Positions 13,500 through 59,820 of a stretch of 64,000 nt of DNA are shown in pieces. This stretch comes from Bacteroidota bacterium (GTDB lineage Bacteria; Bacteroidota; Bacteroidia; Bacteroidales; Prolixibacteraceae), in assembly GCA_023251435.1 (NCBI GenBank), contig JAHEYU010000014.1:33525-97524 (forward strand), given 5' to 3'. The position numbers were made by a program, and so were the translations under genes. The notes under the pieces are model-generated. The model saw only the letters and a program-made list of their open reading frames with translations. It had not been told where the DNA came from and made no database searches. Position 1 is the first letter of the stretch; every line of letters starts with the position of its first letter.

Positions 13500-14018
13500 A
13501 TGCAACTCGAAAAAATTCAAACGAAGATCTATGAAATCCGTGGGCAAAAGGTCATGCTGGATTTTGATCTTTCCGAACTTTATGAGACTGAAACCAAATA
13601 TCTCAAAAGGGCGGTAAAAGCGAATATTAAAAGGTTTCCGCCTGATTTTATGTTTCAACTTAATAATCCTGAATGGGAAACTTTGAGGTGCAATTTTAGC
13701 ACCTCAAACAACAGAGGTGGAATTAGGTATATGCCTTATGCTTTTACAGAACAGGGAGTAGCTATGCTAAGTGGTGTCCTAAATTCAGAAAAAGCAATTG
13801 AAGTCAATATTTCAATTATGCGAGCCTTTGTTTTTATGCGGCAATTTGCCTTGACTCATAAAGACTTGACAGAAAAATTACAGGAGCTTGAAAATAAATA
13901 TGACCAACAATTTAAAGATGTGTACGATGCCATAAATTTCCTGCTCCATAAGGACAATCAGGAAAGCGAGCAAAAACAGCGCAAACGAATAGGTTATAAA
14001 AACGATGAGACTAATTAA
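13500..14018 (+). CDS. ORF6N (KilA-N-related) domain protein
   Basis: A 172-residue protein. The N-terminal 100 residues form the ORF6N DNA-binding domain, with the family's KIYEIRGQKVMLDFDLSELYETETKYLKRAVKAN start and the PYAFTEQGVAMLSGVL motif. A coiled-coil tail rich in Glu, Gln and Lys follows. ORF6N proteins are common in phages and mobile islands of Bacteroidota and probably bind DNA. Here it splits the NapG-like and NapH-like genes, and its last 14 bases overlap the NapH-like start, so it is likely a later insertion into the operon. A decayed relic of a second copy lies just upstream. Confidence 0.85.
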   Translation: MQLEKIQTKIYEIRGQKVMLDFDLSELYETETKYLKRAVKANIKRFPPDFMFQLNNPEWETLRCNFSTSNNRGGIRYMPYAFTEQGVAMLSGVLNSEKAIEVNISIMRAFVFMRQFALTHKDLTEKLQELENKYDQQFKDVYDAINFLLHKDNQESEQKQRKRIGYKNDETN

Positions 14019-15273: not shown

Positions 15274-15274
15274 A

Positions 15275-15311
15275 AGAGTTTAAAGTTTCAGGTTTCAAGT
15301 TCCAAGTTGAC
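15275..15311 (+). repeat. 7-nt periodic array (AAGTTTC-type)
   Basis: GAGTTTA AAGTTTC AGGTTTC AAGTTCC AAGTTGA follows the NapH-like stop codon directly. The same word family recurs at 47404 and 59783. Confidence 0.6.
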
Positions 15312-17399: not shown

Positions 17400-17475
17400 G
17401 ATTAACGATTACAGATTAACGATTTAGGAAGGAACATCGCAAATCCTTGATCGTTAATCGTTGATCGCAAATCAA
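17400..17475 (+). repeat. 7-nt periodic inverted array (GATTAAC-type)
   Basis: The forward arm GATTAAC GATTACA GATTAAC GATTTA (17400-17426) is followed after about 22 bases by the complementary arm GATCGTT AATCGTT GATCGCA AATC (17449-17475). The two can pair as an imperfect hairpin upstream of the NuoEF-like gene. Confidence 0.6.
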
Positions 17476-17514
17476 AATAAATTTGAAAATTATAACGTGA
17501 ACAACGAAACGAAC

Positions 17515-19854
17515 ATGCAACAAACGGTTGACGATATTATCGCTGAAAAAGGGGTGGAGGGAAAATCAGTCATTCCGATTTTGCAGGCGATTCAAAATAC
17601 CTACAATTACCTTCCGGAGGAAGCGCTGAAATACGTTTGCGAAAAAACGGAGATTACTCCCGAACAGATCGTCGGGGTGGCTTCATTTTATTCGCAGTTC
17701 AGGATGCAACCCGTTGGTGAGCACATTATTAAAGTGTGCGTCGGAACGGCTTGTCACGTCAAAGGTGCGGGTCAGGTTTATGATGCTTTCCGTCGTCATT
17801 TTAACCTTACCGGACACGAAGAAACCGATGCTTCACGAAAATATACCATCGAAAAAGTATCGTGCCTCGGGTGCTGTACCTTGGCGCCGGTGGTTCAGAT
17901 TGACGAAATAACTTATGGGCACGTTGCTTCCGATAAAGTTGGTAATGTGCTGGCTGATTTCGAGAAACATGCTGGAATTTCAGGAGCCAAAAAAGGCTTG
18001 TTCCGCAATGTGGACGGGCAGGAAATTCAGGGTGAAATCCGCATTGGACTGGGTTCGTGCTGTGTGGCTTCAGGAAGTGAAGATGTGAAAAAGGCGGTTG
18101 AAGAAACGATTGCCGATACAGGGATCAAAATCAGCCTGAAGAATGTGGGCTGTGTGGGAATGTGCCATCAGGTTCCGTTGGTTGAGGTGTTTCCGAAGAA
18201 TGAAAAATCAACGCTGTACGCCAAGGTGAAGCCCGAAGATATTGCCGGTATAATTGCCAATCATTTTAAACCTCAAAGCACGTTTGGAATGCTGAAAAGC
18301 AGCGTTTACAAGTTCTTCGAGAGTGTACAGACCGACACCGTTTGGGACGGCGTGAAACAATATTCGATAGATGCCCGCGAGAAGCAGGTAACCGATTTTC
18401 TGGATCGCCAGATTCCGATTGCGACGCAATACCGAGGAATTATCAATCCACTCGATATTGAGGAATACAAAGCGCACGAGGGTTTTGCCGCAATGAAAAC
18501 CTGTTTGTTTGATTTGAGTTCGAAGGAGATAATCGAAACCATCAGAGACAGCGGACTGCGGGGGCGGGGAGGGGCCGGTTTTCCAACAGGGACGAAATGG
18601 GATCTGGTTTCTCACAATCATTCGGATGTGAAATACCTGATTGTGAATGGCGACGAAGGCGATCCGGGCGCTTTTATGGACAGGATGCTGCTCGAATCGT
18701 ATCCATATCGCGTGATTGAAGGTGCTGTTATTGCGGCCAAAGCCGTTGGCGCCACACAGGGATTTCTCTACATTCGGGCCGAATATCCGCTGGCTGTGAA
18801 GCGCATCCGGCAGGCACTCATTTATTGCCGCGAAAAGAATTACCTCGGCGAAAACATCATGGGAAGTGGATTTTCATTCGACATGACTATTTATGAAGGA
18901 GCAGGCGCTTTTGTGTGCGGCGAAGAGTCGGCCATGATGGCTTCCATCGAAGGTGAACGCGGTTTTCCTCGTATCCGTCCACCATTTCCTGCGGTAAGCG
19001 GCTTGTGGAAACAACCCACGCTGATCAACAATACCGAGACTTTTGCACAGGTTTCGTACATCATTCGCGAAGGATCGGGCAAATTTGCCGGTATTGGTCG
19101 CGGAACCAGTAAAGGAACCAAGGTTTTTGCTTTGGCCGGGAAGGTCAACCGTGGCGGACTGATCGAAGTGCCGATGGGAATTACTGTTCGTCAGATCGTG
19201 GAAGAAATAGGCGGAGGCGTTCAGAATGGCAAAAAATTTAAAGCGGTACAGATTGGCGGCCCTTCCGGAGGTTGTGTTCCCGCTGAATTGTATGATACTC
19301 CGATTGATTACGAATCCTTGCTGCAAGTTGGGGCGATGATGGGTTCGGGCGGTTTGGTCGTTTTGGACGAAGACGATTGTATGGTGGACATTGCCCGCTA
19401 TTTTCTTTCATTTACCCAGAATGAATCCTGCGGAAAATGTACTTTCTGCCGTATAGGAACCAAACGAATGCTCGACATACTTACAAAAATTACCACCGGA
19501 AAAGGTACTTTGAAAGATCTGGACGAATTGGAATACCTGGCAAGCTGGACGAAAAAGGGAAGTTTGTGCGGGCTAGGAAAATCGGCTCCAAACCCAATTT
19601 TGTCAACTTTACGATATTTCAGGGAAGAATATATTGCACACATCAATGGCAAATGTCCGTCGGGTAAATGTCAAAGCCTGATTAAATACCAGATCAACGA
19701 TTTGTGCATCGGCTGTACCAAATGTGCGCAGAAATGCCCGACCGAAGCTATTCTGTTCAAGCCGCACGAAAAGCACGAAGTCATCACCGACCTCTGTATC
19801 AAATGCGATGCCTGCAAGCAGGTTTGCCCGGTTGATGCGGTGGAGATCGTGTAG
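17515..19854 (+). CDS. NuoE-NuoF fusion, Stn-type transhydrogenase subunits A+B
   Basis: I choose the ATG at 17515 (MQQTVDDIIAEKG) over the TTG at 17461, whose first codons come from the repeat array; a GTG at 17497 is also possible. The 779-residue product begins with a NuoE-type thioredoxin-like [2Fe-2S] domain (CVGTACHVKG, then SCLGCCTLAP). A second [2Fe-2S] thioredoxin-like segment follows (GSCCVASG, NVGCVGMCH). Then comes a full NuoF domain with LRGRGGAGFPTGTKW (FMN/NADH), NGDEGDPGAFMDR and ESCGKCTFCRIGTKR, and two C-terminal [4Fe-4S] motifs (CIGCTKCAQKCP, CIKCDACKQVCP). Cytoplasmic NAD(H) diaphorase. No complex I or hydrogenase genes are nearby. With the GltD-like gene downstream it fits the electron-bifurcating Stn transhydrogenase known from acetogens. 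Confidence 0.85.
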   Translation: MQQTVDDIIAEKGVEGKSVIPILQAIQNTYNYLPEEALKYVCEKTEITPEQIVGVASFYSQFRMQPVGEHIIKVCVGTACHVKGAGQVYDAFRRHFNLTGHEETDASRKYTIEKVSCLGCCTLAPVVQIDEITYGHVASDKVGNVLADFEKHAGISGAKKGLFRNVDGQEIQGEIRIGLGSCCVASGSEDVKKAVEETIADTGIKISLKNVGCVGMCHQVPLVEVFPKNEKSTLYAKVKPEDIAGIIANHFKPQSTFGMLKSSVYKFFESVQTDTVWDGVKQYSIDAREKQVTDFLDRQIPIATQYRGIINPLDIEEYKAHEGFAAMKTCLFDLSSKEIIETIRDSGLRGRGGAGFPTGTKWDLVSHNHSDVKYLIVNGDEGDPGAFMDRMLLESYPYRVIEGAVIAAKAVGATQGFLYIRAEYPLAVKRIRQALIYCREKNYLGENIMGSGFSFDMTIYEGAGAFVCGEESAMMASIEGERGFPRIRPPFPAVSGLWKQPTLINNTETFAQVSYIIREGSGKFAGIGRGTSKGTKVFALAGKVNRGGLIEVPMGITVRQIVEEIGGGVQNGKKFKAVQIGGPSGGCVPAELYDTPIDYESLLQVGAMMGSGGLVVLDEDDCMVDIARYFLSFTQNESCGKCTFCRIGTKRMLDILTKITTGKGTLKDLDELEYLASWTKKGSLCGLGKSAPNPILSTLRYFREEYIAHINGKCPSGKCQSLIKYQINDLCIGCTKCAQKCPTEAILFKPHEKHEVITDLCIKCDACKQVCPVDAVEIV

Positions 19855-19951
19855 AGTTGCGAGTTACGAGATGCGGGTTACGGGTTGCGGGTTGTCGGTC
19901 GCTGAAGTGAGTTACGGGATTCGAGTTGCGAGTTTCGGGTTGACGGTTGCG
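19855..19951 (+). repeat. 7-nt periodic array (GTTGCGG-type), left flank of four-helix-bundle element
   Basis: A long array GTTGCGA GTTACGA GATGCGG GTTACGG GTTGCGG and further variants starts immediately after the stop codon of the NuoEF-like gene. Its complement appears at 20035-20084, 20471-20498 and 20540-20578, around the four-helix-bundle gene. Confidence 0.65.
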
Positions 19952-20034
19952 AAGATTGGAGTTTAAATTTGCTAACAAATATGTAATGAGGAAATTGCTG
20001 AAGTTTTTGAGGAGAATTGAGAAAACTGATTTTT

Positions 20035-20084
20035 ACTCGTAACTTGAAACTCACAACTCGTAACAAATAAAAATAACACGTAAC
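20035..20084 (+). repeat. 7-nt periodic array, complementary arm
   Basis: ACTCGTA ACTTGAA ACTCACA ACTCGTA AC, then CACGTAACAATTTTA. It is the reverse-complement sense of the array at 19855 and ends just before the start of the four-helix-bundle gene. Confidence 0.6.
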
Positions 20085-20095
20085 AATTTTAAAAT

Positions 20096-20467
20096 ATGAA
20101 CAGCTACAAAGAACTTGACATCTACAAATTGGCATACAGATTGGCAATAGAAGTTCATAAAATGACAATGACATTGCCAAAATTTGAGCTCTATGAACAA
20201 GGAAGTCAGGTTCGAAGATCATCAAAAAGCATTAAAGATAATATAGCTGAAGGCTTTGGCAGAAGAAGGTATAAAGATGAATTTGTTCGGTTTCTGGTTT
20301 TTGCGCATTCTTCATGTGATGAAGCAATTTCACAATTGACGATGATCAATGAAATCTATTTTGAAAATAAAGAATTAAACAGTTTACTTGAGGATTATGA
20401 AGTTTTGGGTGCTAAAATCAATAAATTTATCCAATACGTTGAAGAAAATTGGAAATCAACTCGCTAA
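20096..20467 (+). CDS. Four-helix-bundle protein, 23S rRNA intervening-sequence family
   Basis: A 123-residue protein of the family first noted in intervening sequences of 23S rRNA genes (TIGR02436/S23). Family marks are the N-terminal SYKELDIYKLAYRLAIEVHKMT, the central QVRRSSKSIKDNIAEGFGRR and the four-helix pattern, similar in fold to the Avd accessory protein of diversity-generating retroelements. Function of the family is unsettled; RNA or DNA binding is suspected. Here it is not in an rRNA gene but between the two Stn-like genes, embedded in 7-nt arrays on both sides. It is AT-richer than its neighbours, which suggests that the gene plus arrays arrived as a unit. Confidence 0.88.
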   Translation: MNSYKELDIYKLAYRLAIEVHKMTMTLPKFELYEQGSQVRRSSKSIKDNIAEGFGRRRYKDEFVRFLVFAHSSCDEAISQLTMINEIYFENKELNSLLEDYEVLGAKINKFIQYVEENWKSTR

Positions 20468-20470
20468 TAA

Positions 20471-20578
20471 GCTGTAACCCGCAACCCGTAACAATTTTGA
20501 ATATAATATGATGGAAATAAATGAGATGCTTGTAGATAGCCTTAACCCGCAACTTGTAACCCGCAACTCGTAACAATT
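20471..20578 (+). repeat. 7-nt periodic arrays, right flank of four-helix-bundle element
   Basis: Two stretches, TGTAACC CGCAACC CGTAAC at 20471-20491 and AACCCGC AACTTGT AACCCGC AACTCGT AAC at 20543-20573, each run into CAATTT or CAATTC. They are in the complementary sense to the left array at 19855, giving the whole segment imperfect terminal inverted repeats. The second ends 5 bases before the next start codon. Confidence 0.6.
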
Positions 20579-20583
20579 CAGGA

Positions 20584-22146
20584 ATGATAAAATTAACTAT
20601 AGATAATCACTCCGTTGAAGTTCCTGCCGGCACTTCAGTATGGCAGGCTGCCAAATCTGTTGGCATCGAAATTCCGACGATGTGCTATTTGGGAGGAACA
20701 GAGCATTTCACCTCGTGCATGATTTGCCTGGTGAAAGATGCTAAAAACGGACGATTTTTTGCTTCGTGTTCTACACCTGCTTTCGAAGGACAGCATATCA
20801 TCACCAACGATGAGGAAACCATCGAATCGCGGAAAGCTGCGCTCGAACTGTTGTTGAGCGAACATGTAGGCGACTGCGAAGCGCCTTGCCAGTTGGTTTG
20901 TCCGGCGCACATGAATATCCCACTGATGAACCGGCTGATTGCTAAAGGCGATTTTGCCAAAGCGTTGGAAGTGGTGAAACGCGACATTGCTTTGCCTTCC
21001 ATTCTGGGGCATATTTGTCCGGCTCCGTGTGAGGCGGGCTGTCGCCGCAAACAGGTGGACGAAGCGGTTTCAATTTGTTTACTGAAACGGTATGTGGGCG
21101 ACGAAGATTTAAAAACAGAAAAGCCATATCAGCCGCAATTGGCCGACCTTTCAGGCAAAAAGGTAGCCATTATTGGTGCTGGATCTGCGGGATTGGCCGC
21201 TGCTTATTATTTGCAGATTAAAGGTCATCAGGCGGTGATTTTTGAAATGAACAGCAAAGCTGGCGGCGAATTGCTTCAGATCGATCAGGAAATATTACCT
21301 TCGGAAGTTGTTGAACAGGAAGTGGCTCAAATTGTGGCAACCGGAGTTCAAATCCGATTGAATGAAACAATTAATGACAGCCGTTTTGCTGAATTACAAA
21401 GCGAGTTTGACGCTGTTGTTGTGGCTCACGGAACAATTCCTGAAGGAAGTTCTGCATACGGACTAAAAGCCACCAAGGCTGGAATTATTGCTGATAAATC
21501 CAGTTACCAGACTTCGATTCCAAAAGTTTTTGCTGTTGGGAATACACTTCGGGCTTCCAAACTGGCCGTGCGTTCGGTTGGACAAGGGAAGGAGGTAGCC
21601 ACTGTTATCGATAATTATTTCAAAACTGCTGAAGTTTCAGGATATTCGGAGCGGTTTAATTCCAAATTCGGACGATTGGCTGAGGCTGAGTTTATTCAGT
21701 ATAAAAAAGATTCTGAAACTGCACCGCGTCAAAAAGCTGATCAGACTGGTTTTACCCGCGAAGCTGCTATTCGCGAAGCCAAACGTTGTATGCACTGCGA
21801 TTGCCGCAACCCGGAGTCGTGTGTGTTGCGCGAATTGTCTGATCGGTACCAGGCTGTGCAGAAACGATTCCAGAGCGAGGAACGCTGGAATGTGGAGAAA
21901 TTCATTCACCGCGAAGGCATTGTTTACGAACCCAACAAGTGCATTAAATGTGGCATTTGTGTGCGCTTAACCCGCCAGCATCAGGAAGAATTTGGCTTTA
22001 CTTTTATTGGTCGCGGCTTCGATGTGAAAGTGGGCGTTCCGTTCAACGAAAGCGTTCAAAAAGGATTGGAGAAAACCGCTGTAATTGTTGCAAAAGCTTG
22101 TCCAACGGGAGCATTGGCGATGTTTAATATTGAAGAGCAAATCTAA
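20584..22146 (+). CDS. [2Fe-2S]-GltD-like flavoprotein, Stn-type transhydrogenase subunit C
   Basis: A 520-residue protein with three parts. Residues 1-95 are a NuoG/HydA-type [2Fe-2S] ferredoxin domain (C-x10-C-x2-C in MCYLGGTEHFTSCMIC, then SCST). Residues 95-180 have the GltD/NfnB N-terminal cluster motifs (CQLVCPAHMN and CPAPCEAGC). Then a FAD/NAD(P) oxidoreductase domain (VAIIGAGSAGLAAAYYL, FAVGNTLRASKLAVRSVGQG) and a C-terminal Cys-rich region (CMHCDCRNPESC, CIKCGICVRLTRQH, ACPTGAL). This matches the NfnB-like flavoprotein of Stn-type electron-bifurcating transhydrogenases and pairs with the NuoEF fusion upstream. Predicted role: moving electrons among NADH, NADPH and ferredoxin. The typical second Rossmann domain seems shortened. 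Confidence 0.82.
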   Translation: MIKLTIDNHSVEVPAGTSVWQAAKSVGIEIPTMCYLGGTEHFTSCMICLVKDAKNGRFFASCSTPAFEGQHIITNDEETIESRKAALELLLSEHVGDCEAPCQLVCPAHMNIPLMNRLIAKGDFAKALEVVKRDIALPSILGHICPAPCEAGCRRKQVDEAVSICLLKRYVGDEDLKTEKPYQPQLADLSGKKVAIIGAGSAGLAAAYYLQIKGHQAVIFEMNSKAGGELLQIDQEILPSEVVEQEVAQIVATGVQIRLNETINDSRFAELQSEFDAVVVAHGTIPEGSSAYGLKATKAGIIADKSSYQTSIPKVFAVGNTLRASKLAVRSVGQGKEVATVIDNYFKTAEVSGYSERFNSKFGRLAEAEFIQYKKDSETAPRQKADQTGFTREAAIREAKRCMHCDCRNPESCVLRELSDRYQAVQKRFQSEERWNVEKFIHREGIVYEPNKCIKCGICVRLTRQHQEEFGFTFIGRGFDVKVGVPFNESVQKGLEKTAVIVAKACPTGALAMFNIEEQI

Positions 22147-24233: not shown

Positions 24234-25340
24234 ATGAAAACGACGATATCACTATTAATTATAAGCGCTATTCAGATAATTTCAGTTTCAGCCCAATCTT
24301 CCTGGCCCATCTTTCGCGGAAACCAGCAGCTTTCGGGTGCGATTTCTGCCAGTCTTCCGGAGAAACCTAAACTGTTGTCCTCGTTTCTAACGGGCGATGA
24401 CATTAAAGCTTCACCAGTTATTTCAGGGCAAACGATTTTCTGCGGATCGACCGACGGAACGATGTATGCTGTTGGGTTCGACGGAAAACTGAAATGGAAA
24501 TTCGACTCCGGAAATGCCATTGAAGCGCCGGCTTTACTGCTGGATGGTTCGGTTGTATTTGGTTCCCTCGATGGCCTGTTTTTCAGGCTAGACGAAAAGA
24601 CCGGAAAGCAAATCTGGAAATACAAGACAGATAACCAGATTATGGGCTCGGCCAACTGGCTGAAAATTGGTAGTCAATATCGGCTGGTGGTTGGCAGTTA
24701 CGATTATAACCTGCATGCGGTGGGTTTTGCAAAAGGCGACAGCATCTGGCAATACGAATCGGATAATTACATTAACGGAGCGCCTGGAATTTATGGTAAA
24801 AACGCGGTATTTGGCGGTTGCGACGGATTTGTGCATTTGGTGAACATCGAAACCGGAAAAGTGTTTAAAAAGATCAAGTTGGAAACCTACGTTGCTTCGT
24901 CGCCGGTTATTGACGGCAAGTTTGCTTACGTGGGCGATTACGAAGGCAAATTCTTTAGCATCGATTTGGAAGCTGGTAAAATCGCATGGATGTACGATGA
25001 TAAAGAGAAAAATCTGCCCTTCATCGCGTCTCCCGCTATAAGCGGTAATTTCATTGTTATCGGGAATCAGGATAAATTCATTTATTGTTTCGATAAAAGC
25101 ACAGGAAAAGTGGTTTGGAAAGTAAAAACCAGCAACCGCGTAGAATCGTCGTCAGTAATTGCCTCCGGAAAAGTAATTACAGGAACCATGGACGGAATGC
25201 TTTATATTCATGACCTGAAAACTGGCGCTGAAATGTGGAAATACGAATTGGGCAGTCCGATCATTGGAAATCCGGCAGTCGTTTCAGGAAAGATTGTGGT
25301 GGGTGCTGGCGACGGACGGATTTATATTTTTGGCAGCTAG
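24234..25340 (+). CDS. PQQ-like beta-propeller protein, exported (BamB-like blades)
   Basis: A 368-residue exported propeller with a signal peptide ending SVSAQ, then SSWPIFRGNQQLSGA. The blades are unusually regular, each about 40 residues with a G-K-x-x-W-K-x ending (DEKTGKQIWKYKT, DLEAGKIAWMYDD, DKSTGKVVWKVKT, DLKTGAEMWKYEL). It is the most BamB-like of the six propellers here but stands away from any outer-membrane assembly genes. It may belong with the redox cluster. The stop codon overlaps a 7-nt periodic inverted array that ends in a T-run. Confidence 0.8.
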   Translation: MKTTISLLIISAIQIISVSAQSSWPIFRGNQQLSGAISASLPEKPKLLSSFLTGDDIKASPVISGQTIFCGSTDGTMYAVGFDGKLKWKFDSGNAIEAPALLLDGSVVFGSLDGLFFRLDEKTGKQIWKYKTDNQIMGSANWLKIGSQYRLVVGSYDYNLHAVGFAKGDSIWQYESDNYINGAPGIYGKNAVFGGCDGFVHLVNIETGKVFKKIKLETYVASSPVIDGKFAYVGDYEGKFFSIDLEAGKIAWMYDDKEKNLPFIASPAISGNFIVIGNQDKFIYCFDKSTGKVVWKVKTSNRVESSSVIASGKVITGTMDGMLYIHDLKTGAEMWKYELGSPIIGNPAVVSGKIVVGAGDGRIYIFGS

Positions 25341-25405
25341 CAACTAGCCGCTAGCTCCTGGCTTTTTTGCCAGTTGCCAGTTGCCGGAAGCCAGCAGCTT
25401 TTTTT
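25332..25405 (+). terminator. 7-nt periodic inverted array acting as terminator (AGCTAGC-type)
   Basis: The forward arm AGCTAGC AACTAGC CGCTAGC TCCTGGC runs from inside the propeller stop codon. A TTTTT loop follows, then the complementary arm GCCAGTT GCCAGTT GCCGGAA GCCAGCAGC, and then T7. The arms pair imperfectly (about 19 of 31), but the layout is that of a Rho-independent terminator built from 7-mers. Confidence 0.6.
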
Positions 25406-43438: not shown

Positions 43439-43499
43439 AGGCAGAGAGCAGGGAGCAAGGGGTAATGAAAAGTCGCAGTGGTCTGTCCCAGTTGGAAAA

Positions 43500-43541
43500 A
43501 TACTCGCAACCTAGAACTCGCATCCTGTAACTCGAAACAAA
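43500..43541 (+). repeat. 7-nt periodic array between hemB and hemL
   Basis: ACTCGCA ACCTAGA ACTCGCA TCCTGTA ACTCGAA AC, complementary sense only; the matching forward arm is not obvious here. It ends 11 bases before hemL. Confidence 0.55.
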
Positions 43542-43551
43542 AAAATATATC

Positions 43552-47402: not shown

Positions 47403-47403
47403 G

Positions 47404-47480
47404 AAAGGTTCCAAGTTTCAGGTTCCAAGTTCCAAGTTATGCCGAACTCAAAGTTTATGACTTGGAATTTGGAACTTTTA
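47404..47480. repeat. 7-nt periodic hairpin after hemE (AAGTTCC-type)
   Basis: GGTTCC AAGTTTC AGGTTCC AAGTTCC AAGTTAT (47407-47440), then the complementary ACTTGGA ATTTGGA ACTTTT (47459-47479). Over the best 21 positions 18 pair. It begins at the hemE stop codon. Confidence 0.65.
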
Positions 47481-47601
47481 AATTAAACACAGAATAAAAT
47501 GAACCCCGAAAGGTCAACCTGCCGAGCGAAACAGGGGTTCAACGTTAAAATAAAACAGATTATCGGACAAGTCTAAAGAATCAGGAAAATGCTGAAAAGA
47601 G

Positions 47602-47637
47602 CTCAACTTGGAACTTTGAACTTGAAACTTTAAACTC
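47602..47637 (+). repeat. 7-nt periodic array before hemN
   Basis: CTCAACTTGGAACTTTGAACTTGAAACTTTAAACTC, complementary sense to the array at 47404, with the same words. It ends 7 bases before hemN. Together the two arrays bracket the 243-base hemE-hemN gap. Confidence 0.6.
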
Positions 47638-47644
47638 TATCGCT

Positions 47645-59782: not shown

Positions 59783-59820
59783 CAAAGTTCCAGGTTTCAA
59801 GTTTAAAGTTCAAGGTTTAT
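59783..59820 (+). repeat. 7-nt periodic array (AAGTTTC-type) upstream of tilS
   Basis: AAGTTCC AGGTTTC AAGTTTA AAGTTCA AGGTTTA. It is the same word family as at 15275 and 47404 and lies directly ahead of the tilS start. Confidence 0.6.

Follow-up and report, generated by a model that had tools for sequence, protein, structure and literature searches.

The STRR heptamers of cyanobacteria are intergenic tandem arrays of 7-nt units, and we know of no agent for the intergenic heptamer arrays of Bacteroidota, cyanobacteria and xanthomonads. To our knowledge, S23 proteins, whose structures have been solved since 2006, have no known function. The two meet at the locus described here.

The closest described system is the intervening sequence (IVS) of 23S rRNA in Leptospira and Coxiella (PMC4990558), a transcribed unit in which a small ORF of the S23 family is enclosed by terminal inverted repeats. 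In Coxiella, tandem GACAGAT heptamers stand before the S23 ORF in numbers that vary among strains, and RNase III cuts at the start of these heptamers (PMC4990558). The S23 relative 2GSC is a homopentameric ring (PMC4990558). In REP/REPIN-RAYT systems (PMC3116915, PMC8266576), dispersed intergenic hairpins outnumber the gene flanked by such hairpins, and the gene-less copies are the presumed non-autonomous relatives. Intergenic 7-nt tandem arrays have been described as heptameric repeats of Xanthomonas and Nostoc (PMC4692102) and as TAACTGA repeats (PMC4679880); in these two papers we found no mention of S23, and neither puts forward a gene that would act on the repeats. Avd of diversity-generating retroelements (DGRs; 4DWL, 8UB7) is a four-helix bundle of similar size to S23. 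Searches of a collection of open-access papers, without preprints, uncovered no link of S23 genes with inverted heptamer arrays.

Anatomy of the unit between two operon genes

The gap at positions 19855–20583 of the window, by which we mean the whole 64,000-nt stretch of DNA that was analyzed, is 729 nt long and holds an S23 gene flanked by inverted arrays with a 7-nt period (Table 1). A GTTGCGG-type array at the stop codon, complementary arms and the S23 gene are all located where the initial annotation had placed them. The outer 5′ array opens immediately past the TAG stop of the upstream gene and can pair with both 3′ arms, over 17 nt with 100% complementarity in the case of 20476–20492 and over 31 nt with 90% complementarity between 19863–19893 and 20544–20574, which bears out the proposal that the outer arms form imperfect terminal inverted repeats. 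The last arm had been described as ending 5 bases before the next start, whereas it ends 9 nt before the ATG. Against dinucleotide shuffles, the arm pairing at this locus reached z = 14.7. The inner AAC-type array is followed by a degenerate copy at 20075–20086, and S23 is the sole gene inside the unit.

Table 1 Features of the S23 unit, its neighboring genes and a gene-less relative in the window
Feature	Position	Strand	Remarks
Upstream operon gene	17461–19854	+	NuoE + NuoF-like + ferredoxin
Outer 5′ heptamer array	19855–19902	+	GTTGCGA GTTACGA GATGCGG GTTACGG GTTGCGG GTTGTCG GTC
Second 5′ array copy	19909–19954	+	48-nt higher-order repeat of the first array
Inner AAC-type inverted array	20035–20064	+	5′ of the S23 start
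S23 / 23S-IVP four-helix-bundle gene	20096–20467	+	123 aa
3′ arm 1	20476–20492	+	AACCCGCAACCCGTAAC
3′ arm 2	20544–20574	+	AACCCGCAACTTGTAACCCGCAACTCGTAAC; AACCCGC-type
Downstream operon gene	20584–22146	+	ATG at 20584; Fer2 + GltD-like oxidoreductase
Gene-less relative, GTTCCAA-type	47403–47644	+	Fills the whole gap between two ORFs

The locus thus shares with the rRNA IVSs the protein family, a small ORF between complementary termini and the character of a transcribed unit, and with that of Coxiella also the tandem heptamers beside the ORF. It differs in that it lies between two protein genes instead of within 23S rRNA, in that its arms are multi-unit heptamer arrays, and in that many copies and units occur per genome; moreover, its S23 gene is under purifying selection, whereas that of Coxiella is decaying. 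Compared to the REP/RAYT systems, it has no Y1 (HUH) transposase, its arms are short-period arrays, and the sequence of the unit is specific to each S23 lineage. We consider it probable that the window segment represents a single copy of a mobile unit that is widespread and comprises only an S23 gene flanked by a pair of inverted arrays with a mostly 7-nt period. A gene with an ORF6N domain (PF10543) was also observed at 13500–14018 of the window, 5′ of the operon.

Arrays beside S23 genes and their placement in operons

The genome from which the window originates contains seven PF05635 genes, all of which have arms with z > 5. Their repeat units differ (GTTTAAA, GGGGCAT, GTTGCGG, GTCATT, GTTGT, ATTTACA, and AATATCC), and the GTCATT and GTTGT units are spaced 11 and 9 nt apart, respectively. 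Because certain sites have spacings of 8, 9 or 11 nt, a period fixed at exactly 7 was relaxed. The seven genes lie between operon genes, for example hisC–hisB and cysD–cysN (names derived from recognizable sequence and not from a family search).

Arm scores of at least 14 were reached by 71% of the 95 S23 genes in a genus set of 31 genomes (the own genome and 30 relatives, with copies that are not independent) whereas the share was 1.8% among 278 control genes, which were drawn from twenty 20-kb stretches picked at random in one complete relative, G012 (Fisher p = 8e-45; ORF starts set by a simple rule). The median score of the 95 own-arm pairs was 16.0, compared to 8.5 when flanks were crossed between different loci. 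Shuffles, crossed flanks, and control genes exclude chance or AT-rich repeats as the source of the arms. Arms are also not a general trait of small genes, since only 6.5% of the small control genes scored at least 12, and the high-scoring control genes examined were two Y1 transposases and one GxxExxY PDDEXK protein. About 20–30% of the S23 genes had no detectable arms inside 250 nt, and a strict detector of 7-nt arrays found them at 28 of the 95 genes. Strict co-evolution of the two arms holds at most sites and fails at the Nuo site, where arms pair no better with their own partner than with a crossed one. Two Y1_Tnp (RAYT-like) genes of G012 (L195:16940-17389 and L179:10191-10649) were seen to be flanked by other inverted repeats.

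The enrichment extends beyond the genus. In a wide set of 80 S23 loci from named genomes, mostly MAGs and picked by similarity to one subfamily, members of the Planctomycetota, Bacillota, Acidobacteriota, Chloroflexota, Omnitrophota, Patescibacteria, Nitrospirota, and Proteobacteria were included, and 64% of the 76 scored loci had arms of at least 14 (2.2% for crossed flanks). Self-matching in this set was 0.52 at lag 7 and 0.49 at lag 14, compared to 0.25–0.31 at other lags. The strict detector recorded a 7-nt array in the flank of 37/80 wide-set S23 genes, 5/286 control genes, and 0/30 GxxExxY genes. The initial annotation had predicted that S23 genes would be enriched beside arrays, and this was confirmed within the genus and across phyla. 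In the wide set (L229–L308), the 5′ arm showed a strand asymmetry: G outnumbered C at 44 loci, and C outnumbered G at two.

Both neighbors were co-directional for 87 of the 95 S23 genes of the genus (92%), compared to 49.6% of the control genes. The 5′ arm started at a median of 4 nt past the upstream stop codon (67 genus and 34 wide units), and the unit therefore fills the gap between cistrons almost exactly. All 14 intergenic arrays examined in the own genome (14/14) have the same polarity, reading GTT when they follow a stop and AAC when they precede a start. At L149, hisC of the own genome reads into the 5′ array, gains ~10 extra residues, and has its stop within the repeats. The unit may have no promoter of its own and be expressed by read-through, in which case only co-directional intercistronic copies would persist.

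Empty sites, related units at unrelated sites and gene-less hairpins

Two units of different genomes, one located after alr (L047 in G009) and the other in an ABC operon (L066 in G011), were 92% identical in their DNA over 529 bp, a stretch that reaches from one array to the other; the homology ended at the arrays, and the neighboring genes were unrelated. Within single genomes, L046 and L047 were 88% identical over 532 bp, and L021 and L089 were 77% identical over 514 bp. At non-orthologous sites, same-sense arms were common to 43% of the S23 pairs with at least 55% identity and to 0% of those below 40%.

Site histories were traced in 23 genomes of the same genus. Between hisC and hisB, two genomes had a gap of only 1 nt and a third had one of 5 nt; the gap contained a gene-less 92-nt hairpin in two genomes and elsewhere held S23 units with two array types. 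The 3′ end of alr was without insert in G000 (the own genome) and G002. Depending on the genome, the ABC1–ABC2 site harbored an S23 or a GxxExxY gene, a hairpin without a gene, or just a short gap. At the Nuo site, seven genomes had full units and one a decayed S23 gene (L116), while the rest contained array remnants or other repeats. The initial annotation had made the mobile reading depend on an enrichment of S23 genes beside arrays and on empty sites in close relatives; because both were found, the reading as a mobile unit stands. The movement we infer from these comparisons of sequences, and the same applies to its mechanism. The window unit contains no gene for a transposase, a recombinase or any further enzyme that is known, and inspection of alr and hisC–hisB revealed no clear target-site duplication; the unit is thus not a classical insertion sequence, which is defined by a transposase and target-site duplication. 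Carriage by phages was rejected, as a search among 50,697 phage records yielded no match.

In a working model, the S23 protein would recognize the array cognate to it, at the level of either DNA or RNA; such recognition might keep the two arms alike and let the unit, or arrays alone, be copied into further gaps. Candidate chemistries would be recombination or template switching between arrays, or the action of a nuclease or reverse transcriptase in trans. Gene-less hairpins could then be non-autonomous copies or remnants. Such copies are frequent: the pattern GTTNCRRx3 had 72 matches in the own genome, compared to 0 for the pattern read backwards, and these correspond to about 52 loci by hand count, with S23 at the window locus only. 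Among those loci of this type that were examined, some had an inverted partner and many were single arrays. The gene-less relative in the window (Table 1) has arms at 47408–47438 and 47605–47635 that are 87% complementary over 31 nt. The same unit type does exist in gene-less form, both at other loci and at the same site in relatives, as the initial annotation had assumed for the hairpins elsewhere, but the non-autonomous relatives it saw in them may also be decayed remnants, since a decayed S23 gene occurs at L116. Other gene-less arrays or hairpins were noted in ORF gaps of the window at 2691–2756, 15274–15311, 25332–25399, 43439–43551, and 59783–59819.

The ratio of about 51 gene-less window-type arrays to one S23 copy would also be expected if another system spread the arrays and S23 merely settled in array-rich gaps without acting on them. 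That other hairpin repeats and GxxExxY genes occupy the same kind of gap, GxxExxY even the same site, fits such a passenger role as well. However, the sequence of the unit tracks the S23 subfamily at non-orthologous sites, and S23 genes are accompanied by the 7-nt periodicity across many phyla whereas the GxxExxY arms lack that period, which makes a mere passenger role decidedly unlikely.

GxxExxY genes (PDDEXK_3, PF13366) resemble the S23 units of the same genus in their inverted-arm anatomy, with arms of at least 12 in 26/29 and co-directional neighbors in 28/28 cases, and differ from them in that the protein is unrelated to S23 and the arms are without a 7-nt period. At L184:4884-5294 and L199–L228, such genes were observed in operon gaps with CACAGAG/CTCTGTG-like arms, and sometimes GxxExxY sits at the site that S23 occupies in a relative (ABC1–ABC2; L330, L341, L343). 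Several further dispersed hairpins were noted in operon gaps of the genus (L099–L101, L107, L128–L144, L331–L345), for example GAGACGCAC...GTGCGTCTC and CCGTCA...GGCAAAGAATA, and these occupy positions where relatives hold S23 units.

Protein, selection and the RNA or DNA level

Profile searches assigned the window protein to PF05635 (E = 4.5e-26, 91.6 bits, cut-off 33.8 bits) and TIGR02436 (E = 2.8e-28, 98.3 bits, cut-off 24 bits). Its AF2 model (pLDDT 93.6) has four predicted helices and is most similar in fold to 2GSC (TM 0.84), with 2RLD also matched; a sequence search retrieved these two structures only, and both entries have five chains. The net charge is 0 for the window protein and has a median of +1 among S23 proteins. 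At the Nuo site, which is the site of the window unit, dN/dS was 0.041 for S23 and 0.034 for the upstream gene nuoF, with a median dS near 1, and at the Cys site it was 0.062 for S23 and 0.016 for cysD. Because these ratios are low, the S23 protein is, judged by its substitution pattern, functional and retained by purifying selection at these two sites. That such constraint persists where the site is fixed and dS is about 1 speaks for a role in the host and less for pure selfishness.

A host role could consist in regulation, with S23 as an autogenous regulator that binds the mRNA arrays and sets the expression of the downstream cistron; the unit would be essentially immobile and the arrays would be operators. 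A dN/dS as low as that of nuoF, the fact that the Nuo and Cys sites have kept the gene over a long time, the arms that abut the stop codon and come near the next start, the fixed GTT polarity, and the predicted RNA fold of the unit (z = −4.46 against 20 shuffles) are all consistent with this explanation. Nevertheless, we regard it as unlikely, given that the same unit recurs at unrelated sites of one genome and in many different operons, that one and the same site can also be empty, lack the gene, or hold another cargo, and that the mismatches in the arms have no excess of G.U pairs.

On the transcribed strand, G.U and A.C mismatches numbered 58 and 77 in the genus set and 54 and 72 in the wide set. 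Selection for an RNA stem, which was sought as a wobble bias, is thus not apparent, and the counts weigh against the RNA-stem reading, although a fast turnover of the arrays may hide such selection. This result bears equally on an IVS acting at the RNA level, where the stem would be cut by RNase III and retro-insertion aided by a reverse transcriptase, with S23 in an Avd-like role. The occurrence of the S23 family in rRNA IVSs, the Coxiella IVS with its heptamers at the RNase III cut (PMC4990558), the predicted stem, and the co-directional placement would agree with such a scenario, and so would a fold resembling DGR Avd (TM about 0.65). But G.U is not favored over A.C among the mismatches, no reverse transcriptase was present among the immediate neighbors of the window S23 gene, and the Avd match is weak; an RNA-level IVS therefore appears very improbable. 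The fold shared with Avd, which the initial annotation had cited, was recovered with TM values of 0.62–0.67 to Avd subunits of DGR ribonucleoproteins, yet at E-values of 0.28 and above, which are not significant. Its proposal of an IVS-like mobile unit in a protein operon holds as far as mobility is concerned, with the same unit at unrelated sites, while the mismatch test lends the RNA stem no support. Rfam had no match in the window between 12000 and 30000.

Returning to the mobile unit, 7-nt arrays were also found at 4/4 S23 genes on cyanobacterial plasmids, inverted in two cases and including GGGAACA-type arrays, and S23 genes with such arrays are carried by plasmids of Nostoc, Calothrix, and Anabaena. 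We tentatively raise the possibility that S23 units form a general, transposase-less class of mobile units in many phyla, in which a ring-forming four-helix protein recognizes an array of free sequence and a period of ~7. The rRNA IVSs, the cyanobacterial STRRs, and the G-rich heptamers of Xanthomonas might then belong to the same system, and GxxExxY nucleases might drive a parallel one. The coupling of S23 to arrays in many phyla offers one testable hypothesis, recognition of the array by the protein, for two puzzles, and the units provide a link from rRNA intervening sequences to ordinary operons.

One of the four cyanobacterial plasmid genes, on pANA02 of Anabaena sp. 90 (L356:1137-1914), is located in a type I-D CRISPR operon, where cas6 and cas4 are its neighbors; the 363-nt gap upstream of this S23 gene carries a long heptamer array of the AGGTGAC/AGGGAAC type.
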